From positions 1,601,732 to 1,665,731 of the forward strand of contig NC_016894.1 of NCBI RefSeq assembly GCF_000247605.1: DNA of 64,000 bases, read 5' to 3'. Under the pieces are notes generated by a model. It was not told the origin of the DNA. It saw only the letters and a program-made list of their open reading frames with translations, and made no database searches. Below, in pieces: positions 31,111 through 52,872 of this stretch (position 1 is the stretch's first letter; each line of letters opens with the position of its first letter). The position numbers and the translations under genes were made by a program. Origin of the DNA: Acetobacterium woodii DSM 1030. GTDB taxonomy: Bacteria > Bacillota > Clostridia > Eubacteriales > Eubacteriaceae.

Positions 31111-32298
31111 ATGTTAAAAGAAACTAAACGGGCTTATTTAGTATTTGTCATAATTGTTATGATCATCGGGTTATTAATCTTGGGACTATATGGATACGCA
31201 TTACATCTACGAACAATAAAGTATACCTATAGTGAAGATATCGCTTCGGGTAGTTATAAAAACAATGATTTTTATGTTGAAATCAACACCGGAAAAAATT
31301 GGGAGGATAACATAAAAGGTCATATTGGGGCGCAATATGATGGTGAATTTTATAATAATACCAATATTGATCTCATCAATTGGACGATAGAGTTTGCCGT
31401 CCCGGAAGAATCTGTTATCGATAGTAGCTGGAATGGTGTTTATCAAAAAAAAGGTAATCATATTTTGGTAACGGCGGTTGATTATAATACGATAATAAGC
31501 AAAATAAAGCCCGAAACGTTTGGGCTTGTGATGGTTTCAGATGATCTTTTTTACGTTAATGAAATTACCGTTAGTGGTTATAAGGATTATAAACTTACAG
31601 ATTTCCTGTTTTTTTGGGTGCTGATGATTGTATTTTTGGTGGTCATTATTATTTTTTTAAGCTCTTTAATTTTTGAATTGCAGATGAAAAGAATGTATTT
31701 AAAACAGGAAGAGTACAAAAATATTATCATGCAGTCATTAAGGACATTTGCCAACATTATTGATACGAAGGACTCCTATACCAAAGGGCATTCATATCGG
31801 GTCGCTAAATATGCGCAAGAGATATCGCGCCGGATGGGAAAGTCACAAGAAGAACAAACCCGAATATTTCAAATATCGATGCTCCATGATATTGGAAAAA
31901 TTGCCATTGATAATAGTATTTTAGATAAACCGGGGAAGTTGACGTTGGCTGAGCATTTGGAAATACAAAAGCATACAAGCACGGGCGGAGACATTTTAAA
32001 AGATTTTACAACAATTAAAGGGATTGAAGATGGGGCGCGTTATCATCATGAGGCATTTGATGGGAGTGGCTATCCGACGGGCTTAGTCGGGAAGAGTATT
32101 CCAGAATATGCAAGAATCATTTGTATTGCAGATTCTTTTGATGCGATGAACAGTGACCGCTGTTATCGTAAAAAACTATCGAAAGATGCCATTATTAGGG
32201 AACTTGAGCGATGTGAAGGAACGCAGTTTGACAAAGAAATTCTTCAATATTTATATCAAATGATGGCGGAAGGTTTTGAAGTTGATGAAAGGATGTAA
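31111..32298 (+). CDS. HD-GYP cyclic-di-GMP phosphodiesterase with carbohydrate-binding-like ectodomain
   Basis: A 395-aa membrane protein. One helix at about residues 7-30 and a second at about 166-190 bracket an outside domain of about 130 residues. That domain resembles family 2 carbohydrate-binding modules: GxYxNNTN..LINWTIEFAVPEE, SSWNG, then a late FGL. The cytosolic HD-GYP domain has HSYRVAKYA, the metal-binding HDIGKI (about 259), HHEAFDGSGYPTGL (about 315) and DSFDAMNSDRCYR. It should hydrolyse cyclic di-GMP to pGpG or GMP in response to an external, possibly polysaccharide, signal; the ligand is inference. The ATG has aaggagaaaaaatt, and a short palindromic repeat precedes it. Confidence 0.9.
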   Translation: MLKETKRAYLVFVIIVMIIGLLILGLYGYALHLRTIKYTYSEDIASGSYKNNDFYVEINTGKNWEDNIKGHIGAQYDGEFYNNTNIDLINWTIEFAVPEESVIDSSWNGVYQKKGNHILVTAVDYNTIISKIKPETFGLVMVSDDLFYVNEITVSGYKDYKLTDFLFFWVLMIVFLVVIIIFLSSLIFELQMKRMYLKQEEYKNIIMQSLRTFANIIDTKDSYTKGHSYRVAKYAQEISRRMGKSQEEQTRIFQISMLHDIGKIAIDNSILDKPGKLTLAEHLEIQKHTSTGGDILKDFTTIKGIEDGARYHHEAFDGSGYPTGLVGKSIPEYARIICIADSFDAMNSDRCYRKKLSKDAIIRELERCEGTQFDKEILQYLYQMMAEGFEVDERM

Positions 32299-32523
32299 AG
32301 ATTGATGTAACGGCAGTGTACGAATTATTTGAGATGGTAAATAATTTGAAATTACGGTTCCTAAAATATATGTGCAGTAACAATTGTTCCATTTTATATA
32401 TTGAAAATTGTGCTAATATAGAAGGCGTGTAAATAGTTAAATAAATATTACAAGGAAACTCTTTATTAAAAAATAAATTTGTGGCATTGTTTTATTTAGA
32501 TAAATATTTACGGAAAGAAAAAC

Positions 32524-33456
32524 ATGAATTATATTGGAAATATTATTAAAGAGTATCGTAACCTTATTGGTATGAGCCGTAAGGGATTGGCGAAAAATAT
32601 TTGTTCGGAAAAATATGTATATTTAATCGAAAAAGGAAACCGTACGCCTTCTTCGCTAATATGCAAACAGTTTGGAGATCGAATGGGTGTTGACTTATTT
32701 AAGTATTATGAGTATCTTAGTTGCAAAAATCCAATTGCGGTTGAAGCGACCATAACTTGTTTTAACAAATGTAGAAGAGAAAATGACATGGAGGCATTAA
32801 AAAAAGCGACCGATGATGCATTAACATTGCCAGACTTTCAAAAGATACCATGGGTATATGAAATAGAAAATAATCGTCTGTCCTATATGACTTTTAAGGA
32901 GCAACGATGTCATGAAGTCATAAAAACGATCAAAAACACTTTAAATAATCTTGAAGAAGCGTATAAAGAAGACATTACCACGGCTCGTTTTTATGTAATC
33001 TTGTCGACTTGTTATCAAATGTTAATGGATATCGAACAGGCTAAAAAGGCGGTTAGGTCAGCCGAGGAGATAATTTCTTCAAAACAGAATATCTTAAAGT
33101 ATACATATGCTGTAATTGCGGTAAAAATAAATAAGTTAACGTTACACTATATTTCAGGCGAACTGGATGATGTGATCGATGAAGGCCATAAACTCAATCA
33201 GTATCAAGTTGAGACAAGTTCTTATGAACTTGGACATCACGGCCTTTTTTATTTAGCTTATGCTTATTATCAAAAGGGATTGGAAGATGTCGGAATCATG
33301 TGGTTTCAAAAAGCTCTATATGCTACCCTCATTAGATATAAAGCGACCGATGTTTTTTATTTAGCGGGATATGCGATGTTTAGAGTGTTGATAGATGATG
33401 TTCGTATGCCAAGCGAGTTAGTGAGTCAATTTAAGAAAAAATATAATATAACTTAG
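32524..33456 (+). CDS. XRE-type HTH regulator with TPR-like C-terminal region
   Basis: A 310-aa protein. The N-terminal Cro/CI-type helix-turn-helix (residues 5-60) reads IKEYRNLIGMSRKGLAKNI...YLIEKGNRTPS. The rest is alpha-helical and repetitive, as in the peptide-pheromone regulators of the RRNPP group (Rgg, PlcR, PrgX). No small secreted pheromone gene is evident beside it, so quorum sensing remains a possibility only. Cysteines are spread through the C-terminal part. The ATG has tacggaaag. Flanked by HD-GYP and chemoreceptor genes on the same strand, it might control this signalling cluster. Confidence 0.8.
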   Translation: MNYIGNIIKEYRNLIGMSRKGLAKNICSEKYVYLIEKGNRTPSSLICKQFGDRMGVDLFKYYEYLSCKNPIAVEATITCFNKCRRENDMEALKKATDDALTLPDFQKIPWVYEIENNRLSYMTFKEQRCHEVIKTIKNTLNNLEEAYKEDITTARFYVILSTCYQMLMDIEQAKKAVRSAEEIISSKQNILKYTYAVIAVKINKLTLHYISGELDDVIDEGHKLNQYQVETSSYELGHHGLFYLAYAYYQKGLEDVGIMWFQKALYATLIRYKATDVFYLAGYAMFRVLIDDVRMPSELVSQFKKKYNIT

Positions 33457-33473
33457 GACTGAAAAAAATCAAG

Positions 33474-33509
33474 GAAAAGGCAATCATTTGAATGAGATGT
33501 CTTTTTTTT
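33474..33509 (+). terminator. Terminator after XRE gene
   Basis: Imperfect stem aaaaggcaatcat / atgagatgtctttt with T8. Confidence 0.6.
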
Positions 33510-33661
33510 GCCAAAAAATATTAATTAAATAAGACAGGTTTCGTTTATTGAGGATCATAAAAGTATAATTGAAAAAATATAAATTTTCGCAACGGTGTAA
33601 TATTTATCGAATCATAAATATGTGTTTGTCATTAAGACAGAAAGAAGAAAGAGGTATCTAG

Positions 33662-36600
33662 ATGAAAGATCCGCAAAAAAAAGCAAGTGGGGCGATGGTA
33701 AAAATGAATTTAGGGAGAAAGCTTTTAGCTTTTACAGTTGTGTTATTGGCAATTGCAGTGTTTACTATTGGGGTAATAGCGATAAATTTGGGATCTTTTG
33801 CGTTATCGGAACAATCTGATGCAGACGCGCAGGAGTACGTCAATGAAGCGGCAACACATGTTGGAGACATTTTAACCGCGAATCTGAAAACTTTGAGTGA
33901 ACTTGCGTTATCTGAACAAATATCCAATATGGATTTTAATACCCAGGTCGCCGCGATCACTGGGGTTGTGGATCGCTTGGGATATCAGGATATAGCAGTC
34001 ATGAATCTAAATGGTCAGGCGAGATATATTCTTGGCGGGCAGGAATTAGATGTCGCCGATGAAACCTGGTATCAGGCCGGTTTTAATGGGAGCACAGCTA
34101 TTTCAGATGTGACTATCAGCAAGGTTAACGAAAAACCGGCTGTTTTTGATATAGTCCCGATTAAGAAAAACGACCAGGTAGTTGGCTTACTAGTGGGGCG
34201 GCGAGATCCTACTTTTCTAAAAGAAGTGACCAATACATTAGGAGATGGTACGCACAAATATGGATTTATTCTCAGTGAGGATGGTGGATTTATGTCATAT
34301 CCTGACGATCAAATGATATTAAATCAAACCAATGTTTTTGATGAAATTGAAAAAAATGGGCCGTTAAAAAGTTTTGGTCTGGCAATTAAAGCATTTGGTA
34401 TGGGTCAAACCGGTCAGCTAAAATATAAAGTTGATGATGAAACCAAACTGGCTTACATGGCACCCATACCTGGGACAAACTGGACGTTAGTTGTTACTGA
34501 AATTGAAAGTGACGTTTTAGCGCCCATTACGCATCTGAGAAACATCATTATTATAATTTCATTGGCCATTCTTTTGATCGGTGGCATTTTATCATATTAT
34601 TATGCGCGTAAGATTACAAAACCAATTGTTAATGCCAGTGTCATGCTTAAGGAAATGGGTTTAGGTCATCTTAAAATGCGTCTGGAAGTTAAGTCTCAAG
34701 ATGAAGTCGGTGAATTGACTAAAGCTCTGAATAAGCTGGCAGATGACATACAGTTGGTGAATGTGGGGCTGATGGGAAAAATAGCCAACGGGGATGTGAC
34801 TGCAAATCTTGAACCCCATGATTCGGAGGATGAAATAACACCCGCTTTAATCCTCACCATTGAAACAATCCGAGGATTAATTGCGGAAACAACGATGCTT
34901 TCGCAAGCAGCTGTTGCAGGTAAACTCGAAACACGTGGAAATGCCGCTGCTTTTAACGGAGGATACCGTGAAATTATCAAAGGGATTAATGAAACCCTTG
35001 ATGCTGTGGTTGGACCCTTAAATGTTGCATCGGATTATGTCGAGAAAATTGGCCAGGGACAAATTCCCACTAAAATTACGACAACCTATAATGGTGATTT
35101 CAATATCTTGAAAAACAGCATTAACGCATGCATTGATGGGTTGGGAGCGCTCACTGAAGGTAACCGTATTCTTGGCAAAATGAGTGCAAATGATTACTCA
35201 GAAACAATTGATGCCAGTTATTCCGGAATATATGGCGAAATAGCAGACGCTATTAATGTTGTTCATGAACGTTTGATACGTATTGTTAAAATATCGACCC
35301 ATATTGCGGATGGTGATATGAGTGATCTGGAAACTTTGTTGCAAATCGGAAAGAGAAGTGACAAAGACACCTTAAATCCTAGCCTAATCCGAATGATTGA
35401 AAATATTAATAGTCTGGTTAAAGAAACGGAAGAGATGGCTGATATTGCGGTGGCCGGAAATCTCAGAAACCGTGGGGATGCCGGTAAATTCCGGGGAGAA
35501 TATGCCAAGGTTATTGAAGGCTTTAATTATACATTAGATGCAATTATTCAACCTTTAATAGAAGCGATTAACACGCTGAATGAACTTTCAACCGGAAACC
35601 TCAATACCATAATGATAGGTAACTATCAGGGCGATCATGCGCGGATAAAAGAAGCATTAAATGGGACAATTACATTTCTTAAGCAATATGTAGTTGAAAT
35701 TTCTAAAACATTGGCAGAAATTGGTAAAGGTAATCTCGATCAACAGATCGTAACCGAATATCGGGGAGATTTCCAACCCATAAAAACAGCCCTTAATGAC
35801 ATTACAAGCGCATTAAGCACCATGATGGAGGACATTAATGAAGCAGCGGGACAGGTAGAAGGGGGCACGATACAAATTTCAAATGGTGGACAGGCATTGT
35901 CTCAGGGTACCACGGAACAGGCCAGTGCCATCCAGGAGCTGACCGCCTCAATTGAAGAAGTTGCCGCCGAAACGAAGCAAAATGCCATGCATGCGAACGA
36001 AGTTAATGAATTAGCTATGGATGTCCGCAAAAATGCAGAATTGGGCAATGATCAGATGTCTGGCATGATCACCGCGATGGTTGACATTAATGAATCCTCA
36101 AAGAGTATTTCAAAGATTATTAAAGTCATCGATGACATCGCTTTTCAGACCAATATACTGGCTCTTAATGCCGCTGTTGAAGCGGCGCGAGCAGGTCAAC
36201 ATGGAAAAGGATTTGCTGTAGTTGCTGAAGAAGTCCGAACTCTGGCAGCTCGAAGTGCAGAAGCCGCTAAAGAAACAACAGGTCTCATTGAAAGTTCCAT
36301 TGGAAAAGTTGAAGTGGGTACTAAGATTGCTGATGAAACGGCTGAGAGTTTAAAAGAAATCCTTAGTGAAATTGAAAAGGTAACGGGCTTAGTAAGTGAT
36401 ATTGCTCAGGCATCAAATGATCAGGCGACGGAAATTGCTCAGATCACTCAAGGAATTGAACAGGTATCACAGGTTGTTCAAACGAACTCAGCTACTGCCG
36501 AAGAAAGTGCCGCAGCTAGTGAGGAACTTTCCGGCCAGGCGGAAATGCTAAAAAATATGGTAGGCGCTTTCCGTTTAAAAACAGAAGTCAGTTCGCAAAA

Positions 36601-36697
36601 AAATATGATGAAACCAACGTCTCAAAAACCGGTAAAGCAAAATGACAGGAGTATTACTCAACCCCAAATTGTTTTGGATGACAACGACAAATATTGA
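33662..36697 (+). CDS. Methyl-accepting chemotaxis protein with dCache-type ectodomain and serial HAMP-like modules
   Basis: A 1011-aa transmembrane chemoreceptor. Helix 1 spans about residues 20-42. The ectodomain to about 290 carries a Cache-type fold ([34 protein letters not shown]), and helix 2 lies at about 293-314. A canonical HAMP domain follows ([21 protein letters not shown]). From about residue 370 to 690 there is a chain of further HAMP-like units recognisable by the repeated GIN/GFNxTLDAxxxPL and xxGxFxxLKxxIN-type pieces. The signalling hairpin contains [23 protein letters not shown] and [13 protein letters not shown] near 820-860. No C-terminal CheR pentapeptide tether is present. 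No che or flagellar genes appear in the window. Start with gaaagagg. Confidence 0.95.
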
Positions 36698-36755
36698 AAA
36701 TTATGAAGAAAGTACTGCTGGAAAAGAATCAAAATGATCACCATAGTGTTAGCAT

Positions 36756-36792
36756 GAAAGAAAGTCCTGATTAAAATGATTAGGGCTTTCTT
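36756..36792 (+). terminator. Probable terminator after chemoreceptor gene
   Basis: Arms aagaaagtcctgat / attagggctttctt (two mismatches or wobbles) with a short T stretch. Confidence 0.55.
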
Positions 36793-36821
36793 AAAAATTT
36801 GCCACGAAAGGATATAGTAAG

Positions 36822-37739
36822 ATGAAAAGTAATTATCTCGATACCCTTCTTTCTGACAAAAATTATTTTGATATAGAGATGCTAAAACTCCTTATCAAAT
36901 CGATACCAGCAAATGTTTTTTTCAAAGATAACAATTGTAGATATCAAATGGTTAATTATATTTGTGATGAATTAAATCAAGGTGGAGATGAGTGGACAAT
37001 TCTAGGAAAAACTGACTTTGAAGTCCAGAATGATCCACAATTGGCTGAATTTTATTATCAGGATGATAAAAAAATTATTGCGACTCAACAAGGAAGTCAT
37101 TTTATAAGTGAAGTGAAGTTTGGCGGAGAGCGTCATTATTATGAAATAACGAAAGAACCTGTTATTGATGTCGAAGGAAATGTGTTAGGTATTATTGGAA
37201 TTGTAAAAGATATTACCGAGTGTAAAAAAAGGCAGGAAGAATTTCGTGTGATAAGCATCACGGACCGATTAACAGGACTATATAACCGCAATTATTATGA
37301 ACAAAAAATTATTGATCTTTCTCAAACCAATTATTCTTCACTCTCGATTATTATGTGCGACACAAACGGTTTGAAGTTTTTAAATGATAATTTTGGACAT
37401 CATATCGGAGATGAATTATTGAAAAAAACAGCCTCAATTATGAAAAAAATAATAGGTGATTCAGGGGAGATCGCCCGGATCGGTGGGGATGAATTCATTT
37501 GCTTTTGCATAGATTGTTCAGAAAGCCAGTGCATTAAAATGATAAATAAAATCAAAGAAACAGAAAAAAATACAAAATCCCTTTTTTTTCCTATTAGCAA
37601 TGCCTATGGATATGTTACAATATCTGGAAAAGACAAGGATCTGAAAGCGGCCATTTCGAAGGCAGAAAAATCAATGTACAGAAATAAAAAGATCGAAAAA
37701 GTTGATTATCTTAGAAAATTATCGCGATTACTTGATTAG
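36822..37739 (+). CDS. PAS-GGDEF diguanylate cyclase (paralogue 2)
   Basis: A soluble 305-aa protein, near-duplicate in layout of the gene at 26998-27942. The PAS domain contains KSIPANVFFKDNNCRYQMV and ends in IIGIVKDITECK. The GGDEF domain has DRLTGLYNRNYYE, CDTNGLKFLNDNFGHH and an intact GGDEF near residue 220 (ARIGGDEF). The C-terminal ends of the two paralogues differ and paralogue 2 is shorter. It lies after the chemoreceptor terminator and 84 bp before the first GGDEF-EAL gene, with which it may share a transcript. Start ATG with cacgaaagg. Confidence 0.92.
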   Translation: MKSNYLDTLLSDKNYFDIEMLKLLIKSIPANVFFKDNNCRYQMVNYICDELNQGGDEWTILGKTDFEVQNDPQLAEFYYQDDKKIIATQQGSHFISEVKFGGERHYYEITKEPVIDVEGNVLGIIGIVKDITECKKRQEEFRVISITDRLTGLYNRNYYEQKIIDLSQTNYSSLSIIMCDTNGLKFLNDNFGHHIGDELLKKTASIMKKIIGDSGEIARIGGDEFICFCIDCSESQCIKMINKIKETEKNTKSLFFPISNAYGYVTISGKDKDLKAAISKAEKSMYRNKKIEKVDYLRKLSRLLD

Positions 37740-37823
37740 TTGTAAAAATTACGATAAGACAATCAATTGCGAATTGACTTAAAAATTAGTAGCAGAATGC
37801 TTGTTTAAAATGGAGGATGATTG

Positions 37824-40800
37824 ATGATACAGAACCTAATATCAATGATGTTTTATATCCTGTTTATCATCTATGCCATGTTTGGTACTTACAGTTTGGC
37901 ACTAAATAAAGAGGCGAGACTCAATCAGGTGTTTACATGTCTTTGTTGTTGTTTTTCGATTTGGGGATTCACATTTGCATTGGTTAACTCAGCGGTTACA
38001 TACGAAGAAGCCCTGATCTGGAGAAGAATCTCGGTATTAGGATGGGGTGTGGCGTATAGCATCATGCTTCACTTTTTTATTATTTTAACTGAATCCAAAT
38101 GGAGTCAAAAAGAAAAACAACCTATTTTGCTACTGACATTATATGGACCATCAGCACTGATCATTTTCTTTTTTGGTTTATGTGGAACAACGGCAAATGA
38201 GCAAATAATTCTGCTAAAAACGGTCACAGGTTGGATAACCGTATCATCAAATAATGGTTTGGAAAAATTATTTTATTTATATTATTTGAGTTTTTCCCTG
38301 ATCTCATTGATAATGCTGATTCAATGGTATCGCAATTCGACTGAACAAAATAAAAAAAATCAGGCGCGGTATCTCTTACTTGCCTTTTGTAGCTCGGTAT
38401 TTTTAGGGAGTTTTACCGATGCAATCGCAAATAATTACCTGCAAACCAAATTGCCATCCTTGGCCCCAGTTATCATTATGATTTCGGTGGCAACGATCTA
38501 TTATATTATTAAAAAATATGGATTAATGTTAGCCCCGCAAAATACAAATGAAAATGCGGAAGGCATTATTCTAAATACCAACGGCAGAACCAGGCTGTTT
38601 AGATATGTTGGCATGATCCTTGTAATGGGAAGTGGGATTAATTTTTTTATCCTTTTAATCCGACCAAACGAGCGTTTTTTTGCGGCGATATTATGTTTTT
38701 CCTTAGTTGCAATTGGGGCTTTTGTCACCTTGATCCCATATCTCATTCAATCCATTAAAAACCAGGAAAGATTGATGACCGTTTTAATTGTGATAATAAT
38801 CTCGGTTGTTATGCTATTTTTTGCAGACGCTCCATTTTCCAATATTATCTGGCCGGGACCGATTTTTTTCATTATTCTTACGACGGTTTTTAATAATCGG
38901 AAAATGTTTTATATCACAGCAATCCTAACGATTTTAATGGGCATTTTTTTATGGATCAAGTTTCCGTATTATTCGACACCGATTGGAATATCCATATATA
39001 GTCTGCGGTTGCTGCTTTATATTATTGGAATTTGCTTAACCGCGGCAATTCGCAAAGTTTATCGAGAAAGACTGGAAGCAAATGCAAAGTTGGAAGCGTT
39101 TCAGAAGCTGATTTCGGAACTTTCAACCGATTTTGTAACAATATCAGTTTTTGATTTTGATGCCAAAGTAGAAGATTTGATTACCCGGAGTGGCAAGTTT
39201 CTTAATGCGGATCGGGCTAGTATCGGGATGTACGCCAATGAATGGCAGGTTAAATATACGCACGAATGGATATCTGAAGGTGCTGAGGGGGTAAAAAATA
39301 TTCACTCTTCAATTCCACATTCCAGTAATATCCAGTTGCTTGAGAACAAAATTGTCAAGATTTCTGGCGTTCAACCGTTATTTATGATACCCCGAATTAA
39401 GAATATTCAAATTAGGAAGCAAGGCGTTTATGCGCAGATTTGTATTCCTATTCCTGGCAAAAACGGCGTGATCGGTTTTATTCGATTTGACCGGATAACC
39501 AGACGTAAAAACTGGCAGATTGATGATCACGAAATGCTGAGATTATTAGCAAATATTCTGGCCGATGCCATTGCCAAAGTGGAAACTGAAAAAGAGATCA
39601 GCTATTTGGCGTATTATGACCCCTTGACCGGTTTACCAAACCGGGTGTTATTTTATCGCTATCTTGAACAGGCGATTGAACTGGCAAAACAACGAAAAAA
39701 TCTGCTGGGAGTCATATTTATAGATATTGATGGCTTTAAAGAAGTTAATGATACGATTGGCCATGACTGGGGTGATTACCTTATTAATGAGATCGGAAGA
39801 CGGCTCTTAGGATGTATTCAGAAAGATAATATTGTTGCCCGATTTGGTGGTGACGAGTTTTTGATTATGAGTCCTGATGTAACCGGAAAAGGTGAAATGG
39901 ATAAAATTGCTGAGCAGATCATGGGGGTTTTTGATTTGCCGGTGATGGTGAACGAACAGCAATTTTTTATTACGGCAAGCGGCGGGGTGGCGATTTTTCC
40001 AGAAGATGGTGAAACGGTCAATGGACTGATTAAAAATGCCGATCTGGCGATGTATGCGGCTAAAAACAAGGGAAAAGGCCAGTATCTGTTTTGTTCTTCT
40101 GAGATGAAAGAAATGGTGATGAAAAAAGCAAATCTTGCTCAAAACCTCTACCAGGCCATTGAAAAAGATGAATTAATTCTTTATTATCAACCTCAGGTGG
40201 AAATCATCAGCCAGGAAATTATTGGGTTTGAAGCTTTGGTGCGGTGGAATCATCCGGAATTGGGAATTGTTTCCCCCGGGATATTCATTCCAATCGCCGA
40301 ACAGACGGGGCTTATTAACAGCATTGGTGAATGGGTCATGATGACCGCCTGTGCTCAGAACAAAGCTTGGCAGGATCAGGGTTTTAAACCGGTACAGATG
40401 GCTGTGAATTTGTCGTTAGAACAGTTTCGAAGCGAAAATGTTGAAAATATTGTCAAGAAATGTTTGCATAAAACGGGTCTGGAGCCGCAATATTTGGAGC
40501 TGGAAATTACCGAGGGGATTGCGATGAAAGAATCTCAGTATGTTATTGAATGTCTCCATAATTTAAAAAAAATGGGGGTAGCGATTAGTATTGATGATTT
40601 TGGGACGGAGTTTTCATCACTCAGTCGGCTTAAGGTGCTGCCGGTTGATCGCCTTAAAATTGATATGCAGTTTATCCGAGGGATTGGGATAAACACTCGG
40701 GATGAATCGATTATTGCGGTGATGATCCACTTGGCAAAACGGCTGGGCCTTAAGGTTATCGCTGAAGGAGTGGAAACGGGTGCGCAAAAGAATTTTCTTA

Positions 40801-40889
40801 AAAATGAAAATTGCGATGAGATTCAAGGTTACTATTATTATAAACCGATGTCGAGTGAAGCCATTGAAGCTGAGATTTTTAACGCTTAA
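37824..40889 (+). CDS. 7TM-GAF-GGDEF-EAL dual cyclic-di-GMP enzyme, intact motifs
   Basis: A 1021-aa protein. The N-terminal region has seven helices of the histidine-kinase 7TM type (to about residue 230) followed by a second hydrophobic block (about 255-410). A GAF-like domain (about 425-590) precedes the GGDEF domain, with intact GGDEF at about 675 (ARFGGDEF). The EAL domain has FEALVRWNHPELG (about 803), the metal-binding LEITE segment, IDDFGTEFSSLSRL (about 922) and EGVETGAQ. All residues expected for phosphodiesterase activity that can be located are present. The start is the ATG after tggaggatgattg. It is a tandem paralogue of the next gene, 36 bp downstream, and presumably cotranscribed. 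Confidence 0.93.
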   Translation: MIQNLISMMFYILFIIYAMFGTYSLALNKEARLNQVFTCLCCCFSIWGFTFALVNSAVTYEEALIWRRISVLGWGVAYSIMLHFFIILTESKWSQKEKQPILLLTLYGPSALIIFFFGLCGTTANEQIILLKTVTGWITVSSNNGLEKLFYLYYLSFSLISLIMLIQWYRNSTEQNKKNQARYLLLAFCSSVFLGSFTDAIANNYLQTKLPSLAPVIIMISVATIYYIIKKYGLMLAPQNTNENAEGIILNTNGRTRLFRYVGMILVMGSGINFFILLIRPNERFFAAILCFSLVAIGAFVTLIPYLIQSIKNQERLMTVLIVIIISVVMLFFADAPFSNIIWPGPIFFIILTTVFNNRKMFYITAILTILMGIFLWIKFPYYSTPIGISIYSLRLLLYIIGICLTAAIRKVYRERLEANAKLEAFQKLISELSTDFVTISVFDFDAKVEDLITRSGKFLNADRASIGMYANEWQVKYTHEWISEGAEGVKNIHSSIPHSSNIQLLENKIVKISGVQPLFMIPRIKNIQIRKQGVYAQICIPIPGKNGVIGFIRFDRITRRKNWQIDDHEMLRLLANILADAIAKVETEKEISYLAYYDPLTGLPNRVLFYRYLEQAIELAKQRKNLLGVIFIDIDGFKEVNDTIGHDWGDYLINEIGRRLLGCIQKDNIVARFGGDEFLIMSPDVTGKGEMDKIAEQIMGVFDLPVMVNEQQFFITASGGVAIFPEDGETVNGLIKNADLAMYAAKNKGKGQYLFCSSEMKEMVMKKANLAQNLYQAIEKDELILYYQPQVEIISQEIIGFEALVRWNHPELGIVSPGIFIPIAEQTGLINSIGEWVMMTACAQNKAWQDQGFKPVQMAVNLSLEQFRSENVENIVKKCLHKTGLEPQYLELEITEGIAMKESQYVIECLHNLKKMGVAISIDDFGTEFSSLSRLKVLPVDRLKIDMQFIRGIGINTRDESIIAVMIHLAKRLGLKVIAEGVETGAQKNFLKNENCDEIQGYYYYKPMSSEAIEAEIFNA

Positions 40890-40925
40890 AGATAAGAAAC
40901 CAGGAAAAGAAGGGGGCGATAAATA

Positions 40926-43900
40926 ATGTTGCAAATCGTGATTTCAATTATTTTTTATCTAACATTTATTCTGTATGCATTTCTGGGAGTATTTTGTCTA
41001 ACGTTAAATAAAAAGGCCAAATTAAATCGTAGTTTCTTTTATGTATGTTTAAGTTTTGCAATCTGGTCCTTTGCTTTTGCGATATCGAACTCATTAAATA
41101 ATATCGAACATGTGTTGATCTGGCGTCGGGTGGCATCATTGGGATGGGGCGTGGCATTTAGTTGCATCTTATCTTTTATTCTGATTTTAACCGAAAACGA
41201 AGCAATATTAAAGAATCGCGTTGTTTATAGCGCGCTTTATATCCCTGCAGCAGTGACGGTATTTATTTTTGGGATTGACGGAAATCTGGCCTCGGCACAA
41301 TATAATTTAGTTCATACGCAGGTAGGCTGGGGGAATATTCCGGTCAATAATGTTTGGGATATTTTCTATAATCTCTACTATATAAGTTATGCGTTGTTGA
41401 CATTGTTTCTGCTTTGGAAATGGCATCAAGATGTTCACGAAACCGCAAAGCGACAACAGGCTTTTTATCTCTTGATCTCATTTTCGATGGCCATTGTTAT
41501 TGGCACCGGCTCGGAGATGCTGGCCAATAGTTATTTGGATTTTAAGTTACCATCCATTGCCCCGATTATTATTTTGATTCCGGTGATAACATTTGCATAT
41601 AATATAAAAAAATTTGCCTTGATGGCACCGGCTAAATCAAAAAAAACGAAAAATGTGAGTGATGTGTTAAATGACCACACGCACTCAACATTTGTTCGAT
41701 ATATTGCCATCATATATTTATGTGTCAGTGTATTTAATGTCTTGCAATGTTTCTTTTATCCATCGGAATTGTGGGCAGATATGATTTTTGCTACGATCTT
41801 CGTAGTTATGGGCCTTATTATATACAATTTAACGGCTTCAAGTTTGACTATTCCAGATCAGGATCGAATAATAACGGTGATCATTGCAATCACCATTCCG
41901 CTAACTATTTTTCGATTTCAGGATACGCCAATGAGTGAGGTATTATGGACGCTTCCGCTGATTTATTTGATGATGACAATTGTTTTTAATTACAAGAAAA
42001 TGTTTGGAATCATTGCTTTTGTCAGTATTGCCGTGGGTGTTTTTTCATTAATTATGATGCCGGAACACCAAATGGATATTAGTGCCGTGAATTATATGGC
42101 GAGACTGATTATTTATCTGATCGCGATTGTTTTAGCAGCTTTTGTCAATCGTATTTATATCATGCGTTTAAAAGAAAATGAGCAACAAATACAATTTCAG
42201 AAGATGTTGACAAACATTACAACAAGTTTTGTCGCTGTTAATCGACAAACCTTAGATGATAAAGTGAAAGACTTACTTAGACAAAGTGGCAGTTTTGCCA
42301 ATGCGGATCGGGTTTATATTTGCATCTTCTCGGAAGATGGGATGACCTTTAATTATCCTCACCGGTGGGTGGCCGAAAATGTGGAGCGTCAAAGCAGCGA
42401 TACAGACACATGTGAGACGTTTGCTTGGCCTTGGAGTAAAGAACAGTTGCTCAATAATCAAATAATTTATATCCCAGATCGGGAGTCACTGCCACCAGAA
42501 GCAAAAAATGAAAGAGACGAACTTTTAAGCAAACAGATTCAATCGATTATCGCTGTTCCGATTTGTAGTAAAACAGGTGTTATTGGTTTTATTGGATTTG
42601 ATCACCTGACAAAAGCGAAAATATGGCAAATTGATGATCATGAAAAATTACGAATGCTGGCAAAAATTTTGGCTAATGCGATGGCAAAAGTGGAAACTGA
42701 AAAAGAGATGAATGACCTGGCGTTTTATGACACACTGACGAAACTTCCCAACCGCGTATTGTTTGAAAATCGCTTAAAACAGGCCTTGGAGTTGGCTAAA
42801 TTGCAGCAACAATATCTGGGTATCATTTTTTTAGATATTGATGAATTTAAAGAAGTAAATGATACGTTAGGACATGACATTGGTGATTATCTGATTAAAG
42901 AAATTAGCGAACGTTTATCGCGCGTTATTTGGCAGCAGGATACCCTCGCTCGTTTTGGCGGTGATGAGTTTTTAATCTTGTTTCCGCGGTTCTTCAAAGA
43001 AGAGGAACTAAGTGACTATGCAAAAATAATTATGACGGTGTTTCGCGAACCTGTGTTTGTTGGAGAACAGGAATTTCATATTACTGCAAGTGGCGGTATT
43101 TCGGTGTTCCCCAGAGATGGTGAAACCGTGAATGACTTGATTAAACATGCGGATTTGGCCATGTATGTTGCCAAAAGCAAAGGAAAAGGGCAAGTCGCCT
43201 TTTGTACAGACTTTATGAAACAAGATGTTTTAGAGAAGATGATACTGAGCAACAGTCTTTATCAAGCCTTGGAACGAGAAGAGCTTTTTATTGAATATCA
43301 GCCGCAGGTTTCGATTAAAAGCAATGAGATTGTTGGCTTTGAGGTTTTGCTGGGCTGGCAGCACCCCGAATTAGGACTGATTTCTCCAGCGGTATTTGTT
43401 CCCATTGCGGAGCAGACGGGACTTATTAATAGCATTGGTGAATGGCTGTTGTTAAATGCTTGTGCGCAAAATAAGGCCTGGCAGGATAAGGGGTTTAAGC
43501 CGGTGAAAATGGCGATAAATTTAGCGCTTGAGCAATTTCGCAGTCTAAATATTGTGGCGCTTGTTGAAGCTTGTCTTGCGAAAACAGGCATGGATTCGAA
43601 ATATCTGGAATTGGAAATCAATGAAAAAATTGCAATGCGAGAATCCAGTGATGCGATTAAGTGTTTAAATGATTTAAATAAAATGGGCGTGACGATTAGT
43701 ATCGCTGATTTTGGGACCGAAGTTTCGTCGTTGAGCCGACTAAAGGACTTGCCAATAGATCGTCTAAAAATAGATCGGCAATTTATTAATGGGATTGGGA
43801 TGAATGCTAAGGACGAATCAATCGTTGCGGTTGTGATTTTTTTAGCAAAACGGCTGGGAATTAAGGTCATTGCCGAAGGCGTCGAAACAGAACAGCAACT

Positions 43901-44057
43901 GGCTTTTTTAAGCGCTGAGGAATGTGATGAAAGCCAAGGGCATTATTTTTACAAGCCGCTTTCTAATGAGGAAATAGAGAAGCATTGTGTTAGTCAGTTC
44001 GTTTGCCGCCGCGGCGGACAAGCTAAAGTCATGTCCGATTCGGCGGCAAATAATTAA
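40926..44057 (+). CDS. 7TM-GAF-GGDEF-EAL paralogue with degenerate EAL site
   Basis: A 1043-aa tandem paralogue of the preceding gene with the same order of domains: 7TM block, second membrane block, GAF, GGDEF, EAL. GGDEF is intact (ARFGGDEF, about residue 677). In the EAL domain the EALVRW motif has become EVLLGW, LEITE has become LEINE, and the metal-binding IDDFG has become SIADFG, so the first Asp of the pair is lost. Loss of that Asp abolishes activity in characterised EAL enzymes, so this domain is probably a receptor or inert. The last 20 or so residues (from CVSQFVCRRGG) are encoded by a palindrome and absent from the paralogue. Start ATG with gaaggggg. Confidence 0.92.
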   Translation: MLQIVISIIFYLTFILYAFLGVFCLTLNKKAKLNRSFFYVCLSFAIWSFAFAISNSLNNIEHVLIWRRVASLGWGVAFSCILSFILILTENEAILKNRVVYSALYIPAAVTVFIFGIDGNLASAQYNLVHTQVGWGNIPVNNVWDIFYNLYYISYALLTLFLLWKWHQDVHETAKRQQAFYLLISFSMAIVIGTGSEMLANSYLDFKLPSIAPIIILIPVITFAYNIKKFALMAPAKSKKTKNVSDVLNDHTHSTFVRYIAIIYLCVSVFNVLQCFFYPSELWADMIFATIFVVMGLIIYNLTASSLTIPDQDRIITVIIAITIPLTIFRFQDTPMSEVLWTLPLIYLMMTIVFNYKKMFGIIAFVSIAVGVFSLIMMPEHQMDISAVNYMARLIIYLIAIVLAAFVNRIYIMRLKENEQQIQFQKMLTNITTSFVAVNRQTLDDKVKDLLRQSGSFANADRVYICIFSEDGMTFNYPHRWVAENVERQSSDTDTCETFAWPWSKEQLLNNQIIYIPDRESLPPEAKNERDELLSKQIQSIIAVPICSKTGVIGFIGFDHLTKAKIWQIDDHEKLRMLAKILANAMAKVETEKEMNDLAFYDTLTKLPNRVLFENRLKQALELAKLQQQYLGIIFLDIDEFKEVNDTLGHDIGDYLIKEISERLSRVIWQQDTLARFGGDEFLILFPRFFKEEELSDYAKIIMTVFREPVFVGEQEFHITASGGISVFPRDGETVNDLIKHADLAMYVAKSKGKGQVAFCTDFMKQDVLEKMILSNSLYQALEREELFIEYQPQVSIKSNEIVGFEVLLGWQHPELGLISPAVFVPIAEQTGLINSIGEWLLLNACAQNKAWQDKGFKPVKMAINLALEQFRSLNIVALVEACLAKTGMDSKYLELEINEKIAMRESSDAIKCLNDLNKMGVTISIADFGTEVSSLSRLKDLPIDRLKIDRQFINGIGMNAKDESIVAVVIFLAKRLGIKVIAEGVETEQQLAFLSAEECDESQGHYFYKPLSNEEIEKHCVSQFVCRRGGQAKVMSDSAANN
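44002..44050. repeat. GC-rich palindrome overlapping the 3' end of the GGDEF-EAL gene
   Basis: Arms tttgccgccgcggcggaca and tgtccgattcggcggcaaa (16 of 19 pair) around an 11-nt loop. The 11-mer cagttcgtttg occurs on both sides (43995-44005, 44075-44085). It could be a small insertion that replaced the original stop codon, and could also end transcription between convergent genes. Confidence 0.6.
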
Positions 44058-48212: not shown

Positions 48213-49280
48213 TTATAAAACACCGGTGATTGTAATATTTAAATAATTCCGGTCACTGAGATTGATCTCATAGGGGGGGATATCTTCACCATCTTTTTTA
48301 AAGATCCGCACTGTTGGACGCATCGAGAAATCTTCATAATTTTGAATAATGATACCGGTTAAGCGGTTACTCAGCTCCACGGTGGTGCCAATTGGATAAG
48401 GCGCGATTTTTCGGATAAAGATATCAACGAGATCCGGATCAAAAAGCGTATGAGATGAGCCCATAATATATTCAATAACTTCCGAGGGAATGATTGCCTT
48501 ACGGTATGGCCGATCAGAAGTCATGGCATCATAAACATCGGCGATGGAAATGATCCGTCCATACAATGAAATTTGTTCTTCTTTTAAATTATTGGGATAA
48601 CCGCCGCCACAAAATTTTTCATGATGATCCAGAATACCGATACGGGCAGACATGCTAATATTCGATACTTTTTTAATATAATCATAACCCAATGTAGAAT
48701 GATTTTGCATTTCATTAGATTCCTCTTCGGAGAGCATCCCTTCTTTGCAAAGAATATCTTTTTTGACAAATACTTTACCGATGTCGTGCAGCATCGCACC
48801 TAAACCTAAATCGCACAATTGTTCGCGACGCAAACCCAAAGCAGTTCCTAATACGATCGATAGAACCGCAACATTGACAGAATGAAAATACGTATAATCG
48901 TCAAAAACTTTCAGATCAACCATATTGATGACGATATTGCTATTTTGAAGAATTTCATCGACAATCGACTCAATCTGTTTTTGCATATGATTGAAAGTTT
49001 GTTTTTTTATAGGACCTTTTTTTTCGGAAGTGATAAAAACCTCTTTGACACATTTAACGGTTTCAGCACGGACACCATCATTAATAATATTGATAATTTG
49101 AATATCTTTAGAAAGGTCATCTTCAACATAGACCCCATTATAATTCAGTTTTGCAATTCGTTCGATATAATCTTCAGTGAGAATGGTATCTTTGGCAAGA
49201 ATCAATTCACCTCGTTCACCCCAAAGATTATTTCCTAACATCATTCCTTCGCGCAGGCAAAATGTTGGTACATATCTCAT
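48213..49280 (-). CDS. HD-GYP domain protein, cytosolic
   Basis: A 355-aa predicted cyclic-di-GMP phosphodiesterase without membrane helices. The N-terminal 110 residues are of the DUF3391-like type often found before HD-GYP. The HD-GYP domain follows: HSVNVAVLS, MLHDIGKV, LDHHEKFCGGGYPNNL, and DVYDAMTSDRPYRKA. A C-terminal beta-rich tail (PIGTTVELSNRLTGII) is the usual HD-GYP extension. GGGYP replaces the more common GSGYP. The ATG at 49278-49280 has gggaggaaaagcc upstream. It is transcribed divergently from the hydrogenase operon across about 490 bp. Confidence 0.9.
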   Translation of the reverse strand: MRYVPTFCLREGMMLGNNLWGERGELILAKDTILTEDYIERIAKLNYNGVYVEDDLSKDIQIINIINDGVRAETVKCVKEVFITSEKKGPIKKQTFNHMQKQIESIVDEILQNSNIVINMVDLKVFDDYTYFHSVNVAVLSIVLGTALGLRREQLCDLGLGAMLHDIGKVFVKKDILCKEGMLSEEESNEMQNHSTLGYDYIKKVSNISMSARIGILDHHEKFCGGGYPNNLKEEQISLYGRIISIADVYDAMTSDRPYRKAIIPSEVIEYIMGSSHTLFDPDLVDIFIRKIAPYPIGTTVELSNRLTGIIIQNYEDFSMRPTVRIFKKDGEDIPPYEINLSDRNYLNITITGVL

Positions 49281-49703
49281 GGCTTTTCCTCCCGACAAAA
49301 TTACCTTTAGAAAGGCTGGACTTAAGTATTTATTATACCTAAGAAGTACTTATTTTTGCAATCAAAATTTAGATATATTTAGTCAGAAATAGTGGCTGCC
49401 GAATAATTAAAGATCAATATGATTTTATTTCGATAATAATATCATTAAAACTGATTAAAGGCGATAAACGCATTGATAAGCAAAGCGGAGGTCGCGTCAA
49501 GGTCAGCTGTTGGTTCGTTTAGAAGCGACAAACATCATGATCCTGTCCAAAAGGAGCAAACCGGGCTAAAAAAGCAGCAGTGAAAAAATGTCCCAAAAAC
49601 ATCGAGAAAGCGGTGCTTTTTATAGAAATTTGAACGTTTTTTTATCTTTGTTTTAAATTGATTTTCAATAAAAGTCATTTACCATGACATTTTTGCCCAA
49701 GCG
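49281..49703. other. Long divergent spacer with possible RNA structure
   Basis: About 420 bp without a supported gene, upstream of the hydrogenase promoter. The region 49470-49622 is richer in G+C than its surroundings and ends in a loose stem (aaaagcagc ... gcggtgctttt) with T5, so a short transcript could end there. No known riboswitch class could be matched securely. Confidence 0.35.
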
Positions 49704-49732
49704 TTGACAGACAAAAAAACTGATGATACCAT
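49704..49732 (+). promoter_or_regulatory. Promoter of sensory hydrogenase operon
   Basis: A perfect TTGACA (49704-49709), then 17 bp, then TACCAT (4 of 6 matches). It is 34 bp before the first start codon. Confidence 0.6.
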
Positions 49733-49766: not shown

Positions 49767-50009
49767 ATGAAGATAATAAAAATATGTGTTGGCAGTTCGT
49801 GTCATGTTAATGGATCATATAAGGTGGTGCGGGCATTTAATCAAATCATCAAGGAACGGGAATTGGAGAATGATATCGAGTTAGTTGGATCATTTTGCAT
49901 GGGAAAATGTACTGAGGGTGTCGCGGTTGAATGTGATGACATTATTTATGGAGTTTCACTTGAGAATGTAGAAGAAGTATTTGAAAAAATTTGGGAGGAA
50001 AACAATTGA
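49767..50009 (+). CDS. Thioredoxin-like [2Fe-2S] ferredoxin (NuoE/HydC-type fragment)
   Basis: An 80-aa protein of the thioredoxin-like 2Fe-2S fold. Four cysteines (residues 7, 12, 44, 48) follow the Cx4C...Cx3C spacing of the NuoE family. It is only the ferredoxin part, without the N-terminal helices of NuoE. It overlaps the next gene (stop TGA within the TTG start region). As first gene of a hydrogenase-phosphatase operon it corresponds in position to HfsA of Thermoanaerobacterium-type operons and probably carries electrons to or from the hydrogenase. Start ATG with aaagaggaagatg. Confidence 0.88.
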   Translation: MKIIKICVGSSCHVNGSYKVVRAFNQIIKERELENDIELVGSFCMGKCTEGVAVECDDIIYGVSLENVEEVFEKIWEENN

Positions 50010-51709
50010 GTATTATCAATTTTTCAAAAGAAAAATGTCGAAATTGTTATAAGTGTATTCGAAATTGCCCAGTGAAAGCCATTAAGTTAAAGGATAAGCA
50101 CGCTCAAATTATCCAATCGATGTGTATTGGCTGCGGCATTTGTATTGCAACCTGTCCCCACAATGCGAAACAAATTCATAGCGATGTTGATACCATCAAG
50201 AAATGGCTTAAAACTGAAACGGTGGTTTTAAGTTTATCCGCTGTTTTTCCAACCGCATATTATTTAGATCATCCGCGACAATATTTGGGACTCCTTCGAG
50301 AACTGGGTTTTACAATTATTGAAGAAACATCGATTGGGGCCGAGGCGGTGGCTGAGGCTTATACCAAAGAATATGATAGTGACCAAAAATTTGTTATCTC
50401 CTCATCTTGTGCGGGGATCAAAAATCTGATTGAAATTTATTATCCGCAATACTTATCGTCATTAAGTCGGCAAGTTTCGCCGATGATTGCTCATGGTAAA
50501 ATTTTGCGTCAAAAATACCCGAATGCAAAAATTGTTTATGCCGGTTCATGTCTGGCCAAAAAAATGGAAGTTAACGATGCCGATGTTCGCGGGATCATTG
50601 ATGGGGTCTTGACCTTTGACGAAATTGACGTATGGATGAAAGAAGAAAACATTATTCCGAACAAAATGCCGGTACAAGAGTTTGATGCAATCGGAACGAA
50701 TACGGGTCGGCTTTATCCGGTAATTGGCGGGTTAGCTAAAAACAGCGTTGAAAAGTTAGATGGAAGTCGGAAAATTCTCAGAATCGATGGCGTTAAAGAC
50801 TGCATGCAATTTTTAGATGAGATGCATCAACTGGACAAGAAATATTGGATCGAAATGAACACCTGTGATGAAGGTTGTGTTAATGGCCCCGGGAATTTAC
50901 ATAGTGCTCTTTCTAAATATGAAAAAGTAGAAATGTTACAGACCTATATTGATATGAACAGTAAAAAACCCGCCACTGAAAATATTTCCGACATTGAGAC
51001 TAAACGTTCATTTCATAAGCGACCGGTTCATCATTTGGGTGAGGTTCCCGAAGCCGAATTGGAAAAAATACTCAATCAAATGTCTAAATTCAGCGAACGG
51101 GATGAACTAAATTGCGGTACTTGTGGTTATGAAACCTGTCGGGACAAAGCCAGAGCTGTTTATTGGAACATGGCGGAATTGGATATGTGTTTGCCGTTAA
51201 TCTCCAGCAAAAGTGAAGCCATTTCAAATTTGATTATTACAACCACACCTAACGCCATTGCGGTATTGGATAAAAAATTTCGCATCATTGAATTTAATGA
51301 TGCGGCGGAACGACTTTTTAATGTCAAACGTGAAGAGGTGATGCGCTACAATTTTATTGATGCCTTGGATTATAATCCGTTTAAGAAATTAAATTATAAT
51401 AAAGCTTATCTTTATACCGGAAAAGGACATTATGAACGGGAAAACAGAATTTTTATGGAAATACTAACGTACATTCCTGAGCAGGAATTGTATATGGGTA
51501 TTTTTATCGATATCACGAAGCAGGAAAAACAGGAGCAGGACTTTCAAAAAATGCAGGAAGAAACTTTGAGCATGGCGCAACGGGTCATCGATAAACAAAT
51601 GCGGGTTGCGCATGAAATCGCCGGCTTACTGGGAGAAACGACGGCTGAAACGAAAGTGACCTTGACAAAATTGCAAAAGGTGGTTGCCAGTCGGGAGGTT
51701 GAAATTTAA
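50006..51709 (+). CDS. Putative sensory [FeFe]-hydrogenase with PAS domain (group C-like)
   Basis: A 567-aa cytosolic protein. Two 4Fe-4S motifs (CRNCYKCIRNC and CIGCGICIATC, residues 11-57) precede an H-cluster domain whose ligand cysteines are C135 (SSSC), C182 (GSCLAKK), C287 and C291 (CDEGC). The residue after C135 is Ala, where catalytic hydrogenases have the proton-relay Cys (TSCCP). A 4Fe-4S domain (CGTCGYETC, about 370) and a PAS domain (about 403-505) follow, then a coiled tail. This architecture is that of HydS/HfsB-type hydrogenases thought to sense H2 or redox state. Start is TTG at 50006 with gggaggaaaacaa. The stop overlaps the phosphatase ATG by one base. Confidence 0.9.
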   Translation: MSIINFSKEKCRNCYKCIRNCPVKAIKLKDKHAQIIQSMCIGCGICIATCPHNAKQIHSDVDTIKKWLKTETVVLSLSAVFPTAYYLDHPRQYLGLLRELGFTIIEETSIGAEAVAEAYTKEYDSDQKFVISSSCAGIKNLIEIYYPQYLSSLSRQVSPMIAHGKILRQKYPNAKIVYAGSCLAKKMEVNDADVRGIIDGVLTFDEIDVWMKEENIIPNKMPVQEFDAIGTNTGRLYPVIGGLAKNSVEKLDGSRKILRIDGVKDCMQFLDEMHQLDKKYWIEMNTCDEGCVNGPGNLHSALSKYEKVEMLQTYIDMNSKKPATENISDIETKRSFHKRPVHHLGEVPEAELEKILNQMSKFSERDELNCGTCGYETCRDKARAVYWNMAELDMCLPLISSKSEAISNLIITTTPNAIAVLDKKFRIIEFNDAAERLFNVKREEVMRYNFIDALDYNPFKKLNYNKAYLYTGKGHYERENRIFMEILTYIPEQELYMGIFIDITKQEKQEQDFQKMQEETLSMAQRVIDKQMRVAHEIAGLLGETTAETKVTLTKLQKVVASREVEI

Positions 51710-52872
51710 TGCCTTTATTTATGGATATTGCCAATGATAGTGTCAATAAGGTCCATGAGGAACTTTGTGGTGATAATGTTGAAGTTCGGATCAATGATGA
51801 AAGTGTCATTGTTGTTTTGGCTGACGGTCTGGGAAGTGGGGTGAAGGCGAATATTTTAGCGACTTTGACATCAACCATTGCCGCAACAATGCTGGAAGAA
51901 AAAATGGGCATTATGGATGTCTTAGAAACCCTGGAAGCGACGCTACCAAAATGCAGTGTTCGGAAGCTTGCTTATTCAACCTTTACGATTGTTCAGGTTT
52001 TTAGAAACCGGACAGTTTGCATTCTTGAATTCGATAATCCGCCACTGGTATTTATCCGTGATGGCGAGATTATCGAACTGGATCGGAAAGAAATTCAATT
52101 TCAGGGGAAATACGTTTTTGAGACGACCATGGAAATTGAAAAAGGCGATATCATGGCTTTTTTCAGTGATGGCGTCATTCATGCGGGGATTGGCAATCTC
52201 TTGAATTTTGGGTGGCAATGGGAAGAAGCGGCTGATTACGTGTTGGCGCGCTCTTATGAAAACAAAAAGGCCAAGGATATTTCGATGGCTTTGGTTGATA
52301 CCTGTTATAACCTTTATGGTGAAGAACCAGGAGATGATACAACCGTAGCAGTGATTAAGGTTGAAGAACGAAAATACGTGACAATGTTTTCCGGTCCGCC
52401 TTTAGATCAGGAAAAAGATGCTGAAATCAAACGGCTGTTAAAAAAAGGCCGAGGTAAAAAAATTGTTTGCGGCGGTACCGCGGCAAACATCGTTGCCCGA
52501 GAATTTGGCGAAGAAATTGTCATTGATTTTAATACCATGTCTGATCGGGTGCCACCGATCGGCCATATAAAAGGGATTGATTTAGTAACCGAGGGGGTAC
52601 TTACACTTCAGGAAACCGTTCGTCTCTGCGACGATTATATGAATAATCGCTGTGGCCATGAAGCTTTTCACGAGCAGAACGGAGCTTCGATGCTGGCCAA
52701 TATGCTAATCAATGAATGTACGACGATTGATTTGATCATGGGGAATTCAATTAACCCGGCCCACCAAAATCCGGATTTTCCCGAAGAACTCACGACAAAA
52801 TGGCGAGTAACCCAGAAACTTATCGACAGATTACGTTCTTTTAACAAGGAAGTTAATATTATTTACGTATAA
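51709..52872 (+). CDS. SpoIIE/PP2C-family serine phosphatase, hydrogenase operon
   Basis: A 387-aa protein phosphatase. Metal-binding motifs are ADGLGSG (about residue 40), FFSDGV (about 150) and GDDTTVAVI (about 207). The C-terminal 170 residues (KKIVCGGTAANIVAREFG onward) are outside the PP2C core and have no function I recognise. Coupled by TAATG to the hydrogenase gene, it would turn the hydrogenase redox or H2 signal into dephosphorylation of a target, as proposed for HfsC in Thermoanaerobacterium. The target (anti-sigma antagonist or other phosphoprotein) is not encoded nearby. Confidence 0.9.
   Translation: MPLFMDIANDSVNKVHEELCGDNVEVRINDESVIVVLADGLGSGVKANILATLTSTIAATMLEEKMGIMDVLETLEATLPKCSVRKLAYSTFTIVQVFRNRTVCILEFDNPPLVFIRDGEIIELDRKEIQFQGKYVFETTMEIEKGDIMAFFSDGVIHAGIGNLLNFGWQWEEAADYVLARSYENKKAKDISMALVDTCYNLYGEEPGDDTTVAVIKVEERKYVTMFSGPPLDQEKDAEIKRLLKKGRGKKIVCGGTAANIVAREFGEEIVIDFNTMSDRVPPIGHIKGIDLVTEGVLTLQETVRLCDDYMNNRCGHEAFHEQNGASMLANMLINECTTIDLIMGNSINPAHQNPDFPEELTTKWRVTQKLIDRLRSFNKEVNIIYV

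Follow-up and report, generated by a model that had tools for sequence, protein, structure and literature searches.

The closest described counterpart of the locus analysed here, a run of three genes (A, B and C; hfsA-, hfsB- and hfsC-like) in a 64,000-nucleotide stretch of Acetobacterium woodii DSM 1030 (contig NC_016894.1, forward-strand positions 1601732-1665731; hereafter the window), is hfsABCD of Thermoanaerobacterium, in which the order of A, B and C and the kinds of protein are the same (PMC11837493). Deleting hfsA or hfsB in T. saccharolyticum increases ethanol, an effect not seen on deletion of hfsC or hfsD; the authors infer that regulation is involved and that hfsC and hfsD are needed (PMC5707799). 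A sensor together with a phosphatase has also been proposed for R. albus (PMC6776011). Protein B resembles TmHydS of Thermotoga maritima, a group C (M2f) enzyme with N-terminal clusters, no relay Cys, a C-terminal cluster and a PAS domain (PMC10055695, PMC13104023). The TamHydS type (group D, M2e) differs from B in having no PAS domain and in being linked to a kinase-like ATPase, not a phosphatase: TamHydS has a histidine-kinase-like ATPase for a neighbour (PMC8163306), and in Thermoanaerobacter a group D-like gene adjoins one for a histidine kinase (PMC3608648). On the output side, the trio is comparable to RsbP/RsbQ of Bacillus subtilis and SpoIIE-type phosphatases, with PAS, helix and PP2C in sequence. 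RsbP carries PAS, coiled coil and PPM on one chain (PMC3183031), a long regulatory helix of the N-terminal region of SpoIIE contacts switch helices alpha1/alpha2 (PMC5468089), and both phosphatases are controlled through their switch helices, on which a helix from the N-terminal regulatory region acts (PMC5468089, PMC3183031).

The A. woodii trio is genuine and well conserved, and modules of its kind are already known. Judged from its sequence, it most likely represents an Hfs-type, group C (M2f) sensory hydrogenase module without HfsD, whose function would be the sensing of H2. The three genes are:

49767-50009, plus strand: gene A (hfsA-like), an 80-residue thioredoxin-fold [2Fe-2S] protein, PF01257 over cut-off
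50006-51709, plus strand: gene B (hfsB-like), a 567-residue [FeFe]-hydrogenase of group C sensory type, with a TTG start
51709-52872, plus strand: gene C (hfsC-like), a 387-residue PP2C/SpoIIE phosphatase with an extra C-terminal domain

Genes A and B overlap by 4 bases (TTGA), and B and C by 1 base (TAATG, the ATG of C lying on the stop of B); an alternative in-frame TTG for gene B is present at 49991. An earlier note on this DNA, made from the letters alone, had described three genes tightly coupled by these overlaps in the HfsABC order, and both its coordinates and the adjacency of A, B and C in that order are borne out. The putative ligands of A are C7, C12, C44 and C48, and the pattern Cx4C..Cx3C is present in 75/75 A-like open reading frames (ORFs; score >40, <130 amino acids). 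For gene C, the nearest relatives in named genomes are those of Acetobacterium, with 80-91% identity.

To place the trio, 100 loci were compared, comprising the window, 19 loci from named genomes and 80 stretches picked from phylum-wide matches to the C-terminal domain of C. HfsB is found directly upstream of 90 out of 93 HfsC ORFs longer than 300 amino acids, at a distance of -17 to +10 bases in 74 of the 90 pairs (ORF starts were assigned mechanically). As for the three HfsC without an upstream HfsB call, the first copy in L073 is truncated by a contig edge, that of L131 is an over-extended ORF with HfsB present, and L062 is a true lack. The latter, a lone HfsC at L062:7987-9126 with no HfsB within the 16 kb fetched, looks shortened after DGLG, where the first switch helix is expected, and is possibly a decaying copy. 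No HfsB-HfsC fusions were seen among the frames listed, the longest of which with the C-terminal domain has about 526 amino acids. In other genera, the nearest hydrogenase partner is HydABC in 39, HfsD-like in 15 and none in 14 of 68 loci, counting loci with at least 4.5 kb of flank on both sides or with a partner found and setting aside 8 short-flank partnerless loci; among the Acetobacterium and Eubacterium hfs loci, 14/14 have no hydrogenase partner. Unlike hfsABCD, the trio has no HfsD adjoining it, and none exists among the four PF02906 genes of the genome (scanned as a single contig of 4,044,777 bases). Besides B, these are HydA2, which belongs to the formate dehydrogenase cluster (PMC3315566), and two genes of the hyd operon, one encoding HydA and the other a protein of group D type. 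The absence of HfsD after the trio, already pointed out in the earlier note, holds throughout the fetched flanks, and the other PF02906 genes sit elsewhere.

In a phylogeny of H-cluster domains (141 rows; 11 near-identical Acetobacterium rows dropped, HydA limited to 26 rows, no published group C reference), B is nested within a clade of 75 PAS-bearing hydrogenases with support of 0.69, the next inner node containing 74 rows with support of 0.91. Five of the 80 PAS-bearing rows fall outside this clade, that is, PAS-bearing hydrogenases are not monophyletic as a whole. Because several tree neighbours of B come from HfsD-containing loci, loss of HfsD in the lineage of B is plausible.

Protein B displays the following elements:

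50027-50167, plus strand: two N-terminal [4Fe-4S] motifs (residues 8-54; Fer4 models)
50231-50890, plus strand: H-cluster domain (residues 76-295; PF02906, E 1.4e-42)
50405-50407, plus strand: Ser134 at the proton-relay column (CpI Cys299)
51107-51196, plus strand: C-terminal [4Fe-4S] domain, Cx2Cx4Cx16C (PF04060; motif exact in the window sequence)
51233-51517, plus strand: PAS domain (PF00989 over cut-off, match residues 410-454; C-terminal edge approximate)
51596-51655, plus strand: putative output helix, QMRVAHEIAGLLGETTAETK, strongly conserved

The H-cluster ligands C135, C182, C287 and C291 are kept in 90/90 HfsB compared, in line with the four ligand cysteines listed in the earlier note. 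That note had also placed Ala at the relay Cys, which has to be corrected: in alignments with TmHydA and the HydA2 of this genome, SSSCAG of B aligns with TSCCPA, so that the relay column holds Ser134, the ligand is C135, and Ala sits in the Pro301 column. Over the 90 HfsB, the relay residue is S in 29, A in 27, C in 26, Y in 3, P in 2, and F, V and H in 1 each (two other hydrogenases of this genome, L001 and L004, are missing as reference rows from this alignment). All 14 Acetobacterium/Eubacterium rows have Ser, in which they differ from hfsABCD, and 16/16 HfsD-like proteins have Cys. In a published survey of sensory enzymes, Cys accounts for 17%, Ala for about 43%, and Pro and Ser for about 10% each (PMC10055695), and the relay Ser is therefore an ordinary variant. 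Where TmHydS has Ala131 and Ser267 at the relay and Met497 columns, B has Ser134 and Asn285 (by alignment); its residue in the Met353 column, read from the sequence, is Gly. The directly attached phosphatase gene is a possible further difference from TmHydS. The strict double [4Fe-4S] motif pattern fits 70/90 HfsB, and a slightly looser version of the Cx2Cx4Cx16C pattern fits 89/90. The terminal helix is at least 80% identical in 17 of its 20 columns over the 90 HfsB, and no second copy of it was found in the genome at E<=0.1.

With H-cluster ligands and both N-terminal clusters intact, B might be mainly a catalytic, ferredoxin-linked hydrogenase that C merely tunes, the more so as TmHydS with its relay Ala still turns over H2 (PMC10055695). 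We regard this as very unlikely: Ser stands in for the relay Cys, Gly and Asn occupy the Met353 and Met497 columns, B ends in a PAS domain and a conserved helix, and an intact phosphatase gene adjoins it. Furthermore, papers on A. woodii count HydABC and HydA2 alone as hydrogenases (PMC7242416, PMC11208171), for which reason both B and the 451-residue group D-type protein described below look overlooked in them. A high or low rate of H2 turnover would not decide between a catalytic and a sensory enzyme, because TmHydS is slower than CpI yet active, and introduction of Cys at its relay position lowered activity (PMC10055695). The sensory character of B, proposed in the earlier note with PAS and phosphatase as the output, is supported by the domains, the Cx2Cx4Cx16C motif, synteny and the tree. 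Reading B as a sensor is also favoured by a protein of 894 amino acids at L181:606-3290 (G274:C1:1961605-1964289), which combines Fer4, H-cluster, Fe-S and PAS domains with a sigma-54 activator and HTH and shows that the B-like H-domain/Fe-S/PAS unit is portable and can be attached to a transcription activator. This protein lies between two hyd operons, has Pro in the relay column and is apparently a hydrogenase-type sensor wired directly to transcription.

Protein C consists of two parts:

51709-52368, plus strand: PP2C catalytic domain (PF07228 at residues 30-218), without an N-terminal regulatory domain
52369-52869, plus strand: HfsC C-terminal domain, predicted Rossmann-like, with GPP, CGGT, PP, DLVTEG and G...N motifs

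The full-length model of C (mean predicted local distance difference test score, pLDDT, 85.3) superimposes on 3pu9 (Z 24.7, root-mean-square deviation (rmsd) 2.6, 217 aligned) and on SpoIIE 5ucg (Z 22.9, rmsd 2.8, 214 aligned). D39, D154, D209 and D210 are present in 92/92 HfsC compared; the corresponding Asp residues in PP2C enzymes bind metal. The first PP2C strand begins at residue 3 of the model and, since the chain begins at this strand, C is without a regulatory helix. As C lacks such a helix and the end of B has a conserved candidate for it, we propose that the missing element is probably supplied in trans by the C-terminal helix of B, making the pair a split RsbP. Unlike in RsbP, PAS-helix and phosphatase are on separate proteins, split at the 1-base gene overlap, and unlike in both RsbP and SpoIIE, the input of the trio would be a hydrogenase and the phosphatase carries an extra C-terminal domain.

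According to the earlier note, the tail of the phosphatase has no known domain. This stands for the libraries searched, in that the about 167 residues after PP2C gave no Pfam or NCBIfam family over cut-off, but these residues make up a conserved domain that is widespread and has a confidently predicted fold. By its conservation it is a widely distributed and undescribed family, no description of which turned up in the literature searched. It is found in 121/398 phylum genomes (81/267 genera), mostly in frames of about 380-400 amino acids. Three genomes, all from one genus, encode the domain as a gene of its own (156-159 amino acids):

L118:7945-8415: stand-alone domain copy, directly after hydC-hydB-hydA
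L119:8023-8502: stand-alone domain copy, directly after hydC-hydB-hydA
L120:7999-8475: stand-alone domain copy, directly after hydC-hydB-hydA

Other short frames with the domain are at contig ends (L121, L122) or are apparently split HfsC genes (L064, L081, L123). Across 92 aligned members (after removal of 8 near-identical rows and 2 fragments), G37, G78, G127 and N131 never vary, and GPP, CGGT, PP and DLVTEG are almost invariant. As the structure listing for the full C model covered residues 1-221 only, the domain was modelled separately (pLDDT 89.6; predicted template modelling score, pTM, 0.85). In the secondary structure of this model the conserved motifs come after the ends of strands 5-10, 32-36, 72-76 and 121-126. 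Strand ends are the usual ligand edge of a Rossmann-like sheet, and in the model the conserved strand-end loops probably form a ligand pocket.

A second structure aligner placed molybdopterin-oxidoreductase-type proteins in rows 1-19, with NuoG (7awt_G; Z 9.3, rmsd 3.4, 120 aligned), FhcB (Z 8.7), formylmethanofuran dehydrogenase B (Z 8.1-8.6), formate dehydrogenase H (Z 7.4) and other molybdopterin-type matches at Z 6.6-8.7, a best Z of 7-8 being typical for models without a clear match. Several of these matches are presumably complex I chains. The likeness to molybdopterin-oxidoreductase-type Rossmann-like domains is thus no more than suggestive. Searches by sequence gave no consistent Pfam family over the 92 members, nothing better than E 0.25 for the 92-member profile against PDB sequences, and nothing at E<=0.01 in NCBIfam for the three stand-alone copies. 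Kinship with the DRTGG proteins of the hyd operon was considered and rejected (hhalign probability <1%, likewise for the HATPase family used as control). The conserved loops, the copies standing alone after hydCBA and the weak structural likeness to molybdopterin-type proteins would all suit a phosphatase that answers mainly to a ligand of its C-terminal domain (e.g. a nucleotide or an NAD(H)-like compound), with B as a scaffold or redox modulator. Such an arrangement appears distinctly unlikely to us, because the domain is fused to PP2C behind HfsB in most loci examined and Foldseek with the domain model returned no match at E<=0.001.

A phosphatase module of the kind proposed, with B acting on C, would be opposed by a kinase. 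No RsbW-like kinase gene lies beside the phosphatase gene of the trio, and the candidate sits elsewhere in the genome, in the hyd operon:

L138:7294-15853, minus strand: hyd operon of this genome, headed by genes for what we take to be a DRTGG-type protein and for a 138-residue HATPase protein, with that for a 451-residue sensor behind them
L138:13679-15034, minus strand: group D-type sensor-like hydrogenase of 451 residues, with relay Ala, N-terminal clusters and a C-terminal Fe-S domain, without PAS

The HATPase gene adjoins the group D-type hydrogenase-like gene in 21/21 loci (this genome and 20 fetched of 167 others), and the usual order in most of the 21 continues DRTGG, PHP, NuoE, HATPase, [2Fe-2S], HydB and HydA homologues. 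The 451-residue protein has the architecture and context of TamHydS, with a kinase-like ATPase upstream of hydABC (PMC8163306, PMC3608648). The HydA of this operon (L138:7294-9114) has TSCSPGW versus TSCCPGW in CpI, that is, Ser in an H-cluster ligand cysteine column; 48 HydA-like ORFs comprise 40 with TSCCP, 7 with TSCSP and 1 with neither.

Orthologs of the HATPase protein, defined by E<1e-25 (a gap lies between 1.4e-26 and 2.5e-18, and the threshold was set after viewing the list), are present in 168/398 phylum genomes. The 316 genomes with a PF02906 hydrogenase include all 121 HfsC-domain and all 168 HATPase genomes; among these 316, the ortholog is found in 91/121 genomes with the HfsC domain versus 77/195 without it (odds ratio (OR) 4.6). 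When each of the 114 families is represented by a single genome (1000 draws), the median OR is 5.1, the median p 1.3e-4 and the 95th percentile of p 0.0025, and within families the Mantel-Haenszel OR is 4.7 (p 0.046). On this gene content, the HATPase protein is the most likely candidate for a protein kinase paired with C; such a pairing of group C and group D sensors through kinase and phosphatase has no description that turned up in the literature searched.

Several observations weigh against this pairing. The general HATPase_c model fits the HATPase protein better (36.7 bits) than does HATPase_c_2, the anti-sigma-kinase type (27.6 bits, or 27.0 bits in the genome scan, against a cut-off of 27.4), and calling this protein RsbW-like therefore refers to its size and architecture. 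No HfsC occurs in any of the 21 HATPase loci, and the two arms are about 1.5 Mb apart in this genome. The ortholog is missing in 30/121 HfsC-domain genomes and 77 genomes have it without the HfsC domain, so that neither needs the other. A common fermentative lifestyle may underlie the co-occurrence, the within-family signal being weak. Finally, no substrate of phosphatase C was found.

The trio could instead be an ordinary Hfs sensor whose substrate is phosphorylated by another kinase (e.g. a STAS protein that another RsbW/SpoIIAB homologue phosphorylates), the group D HATPase acting independently. The genome offers 12 HATPase_c_2 matches at E<=0.001, of which some lie in long frames and are probably histidine kinases, and five STAS matches (surroundings examined for three, the other two being at 3062082 and 3922985), none of the five tied to the trio, and the 30 HfsC-domain genomes without the ortholog are in keeping with this reading. 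We nevertheless consider this somewhat unlikely, since the HfsC-HATPase association persists when each family contributes a single genome and also, though weakly, within families, and since visual inspection of the 25 families most often found as neighbours of hfsABC, a survey made without a profile search, revealed no STAS gene. That survey covered 735 neighbours, with near-identical Acetobacterium loci left out, and no phosphoprotein target stood out among the same 25 families. The commonest family, present in 25 loci, has CoA_binding and PF06971 domains, from which we take it to be the Rex repressor; an AdhE-type protein lies near hfs genes in 6 loci. A full RsbU-like module is found elsewhere in this genome (L142:2445-4705), where consecutive genes encode PAS-STAS, STAS, HATPase and SpoIIE phosphatase proteins and a hybrid histidine kinase gene comes next.

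Returning to the A-B-C module opposed by the HATPase protein, the mechanism that we propose is as follows. H2 or reduced carriers would act on B by changing the state of its H-cluster and Fe-S chain, for which A is a likely point of electron entry or exit. From the Fe-S chain, the change would travel via the C-terminal Fe-S domain and the PAS domain to the terminal helix, which may contact the switch helices of C in trans and turn dephosphorylation on or off, while the C-terminal domain of C would bind a second small ligand or a partner. The opposing kinase would most likely be the small HATPase protein beside the group D-type sensor at the head of the hydABC operon, and H2 could thereby tune a phosphoprotein controlling hydrogenase and fermentation genes. 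The domains, catalytic residues, synteny, conservation and co-occurrence are read directly from the sequences, and the proposal as a whole, an H2/redox sensor with phosphatase output opposed by the hyd-operon HATPase, has in our view about an even chance of being right. A more specific version is tentative and rather unlikely in its entirety: two sensors with opposite outputs, group C acting through a PP2C phosphatase with a small-molecule domain and group D through an RsbW-like kinase, would converge on the same phosphosite that sets hydABC and fermentation genes, and Acetobacterium would be uncoupled in that its phosphatase arm has no catalytic hydrogenase.

Upstream of the trio, a consensus scan gave one element of interest:

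49704-49732, plus strand: promoter-like TTGACA-17-TACCAT, its end lying 34 bases upstream of the gene A ATG

Taken as a set, the sites found in the region were not significant (18 sites versus 12.2 +/- 3.6 expected in shuffles), and no RNA element above Rfam gathering scores was found near genes A-C. Read from translations, PAS-GGDEF, GGDEF, HD-GYP, chemoreceptor-like and GGDEF-EAL genes form a run at 26998-44057 of the window, a cyclic-di-GMP signalling cluster, and another HD-GYP gene (48213-49298) is oriented divergently to gene A.

In the passages of the literature consulted here, no phosphorylation target is named for the signal output of [FeFe]-hydrogenase sensors. Both catalytic hydrogenases of A. 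woodii have already been deleted (PMC11208171), and the sensor is therefore open to study without a catalytic background. The locus thus represents a compact test case, in an acetogen, for hydrogenase-sensor signalling, and it provides testable leads in the candidate kinase-phosphatase pairing and in the conserved, undescribed HfsC domain.

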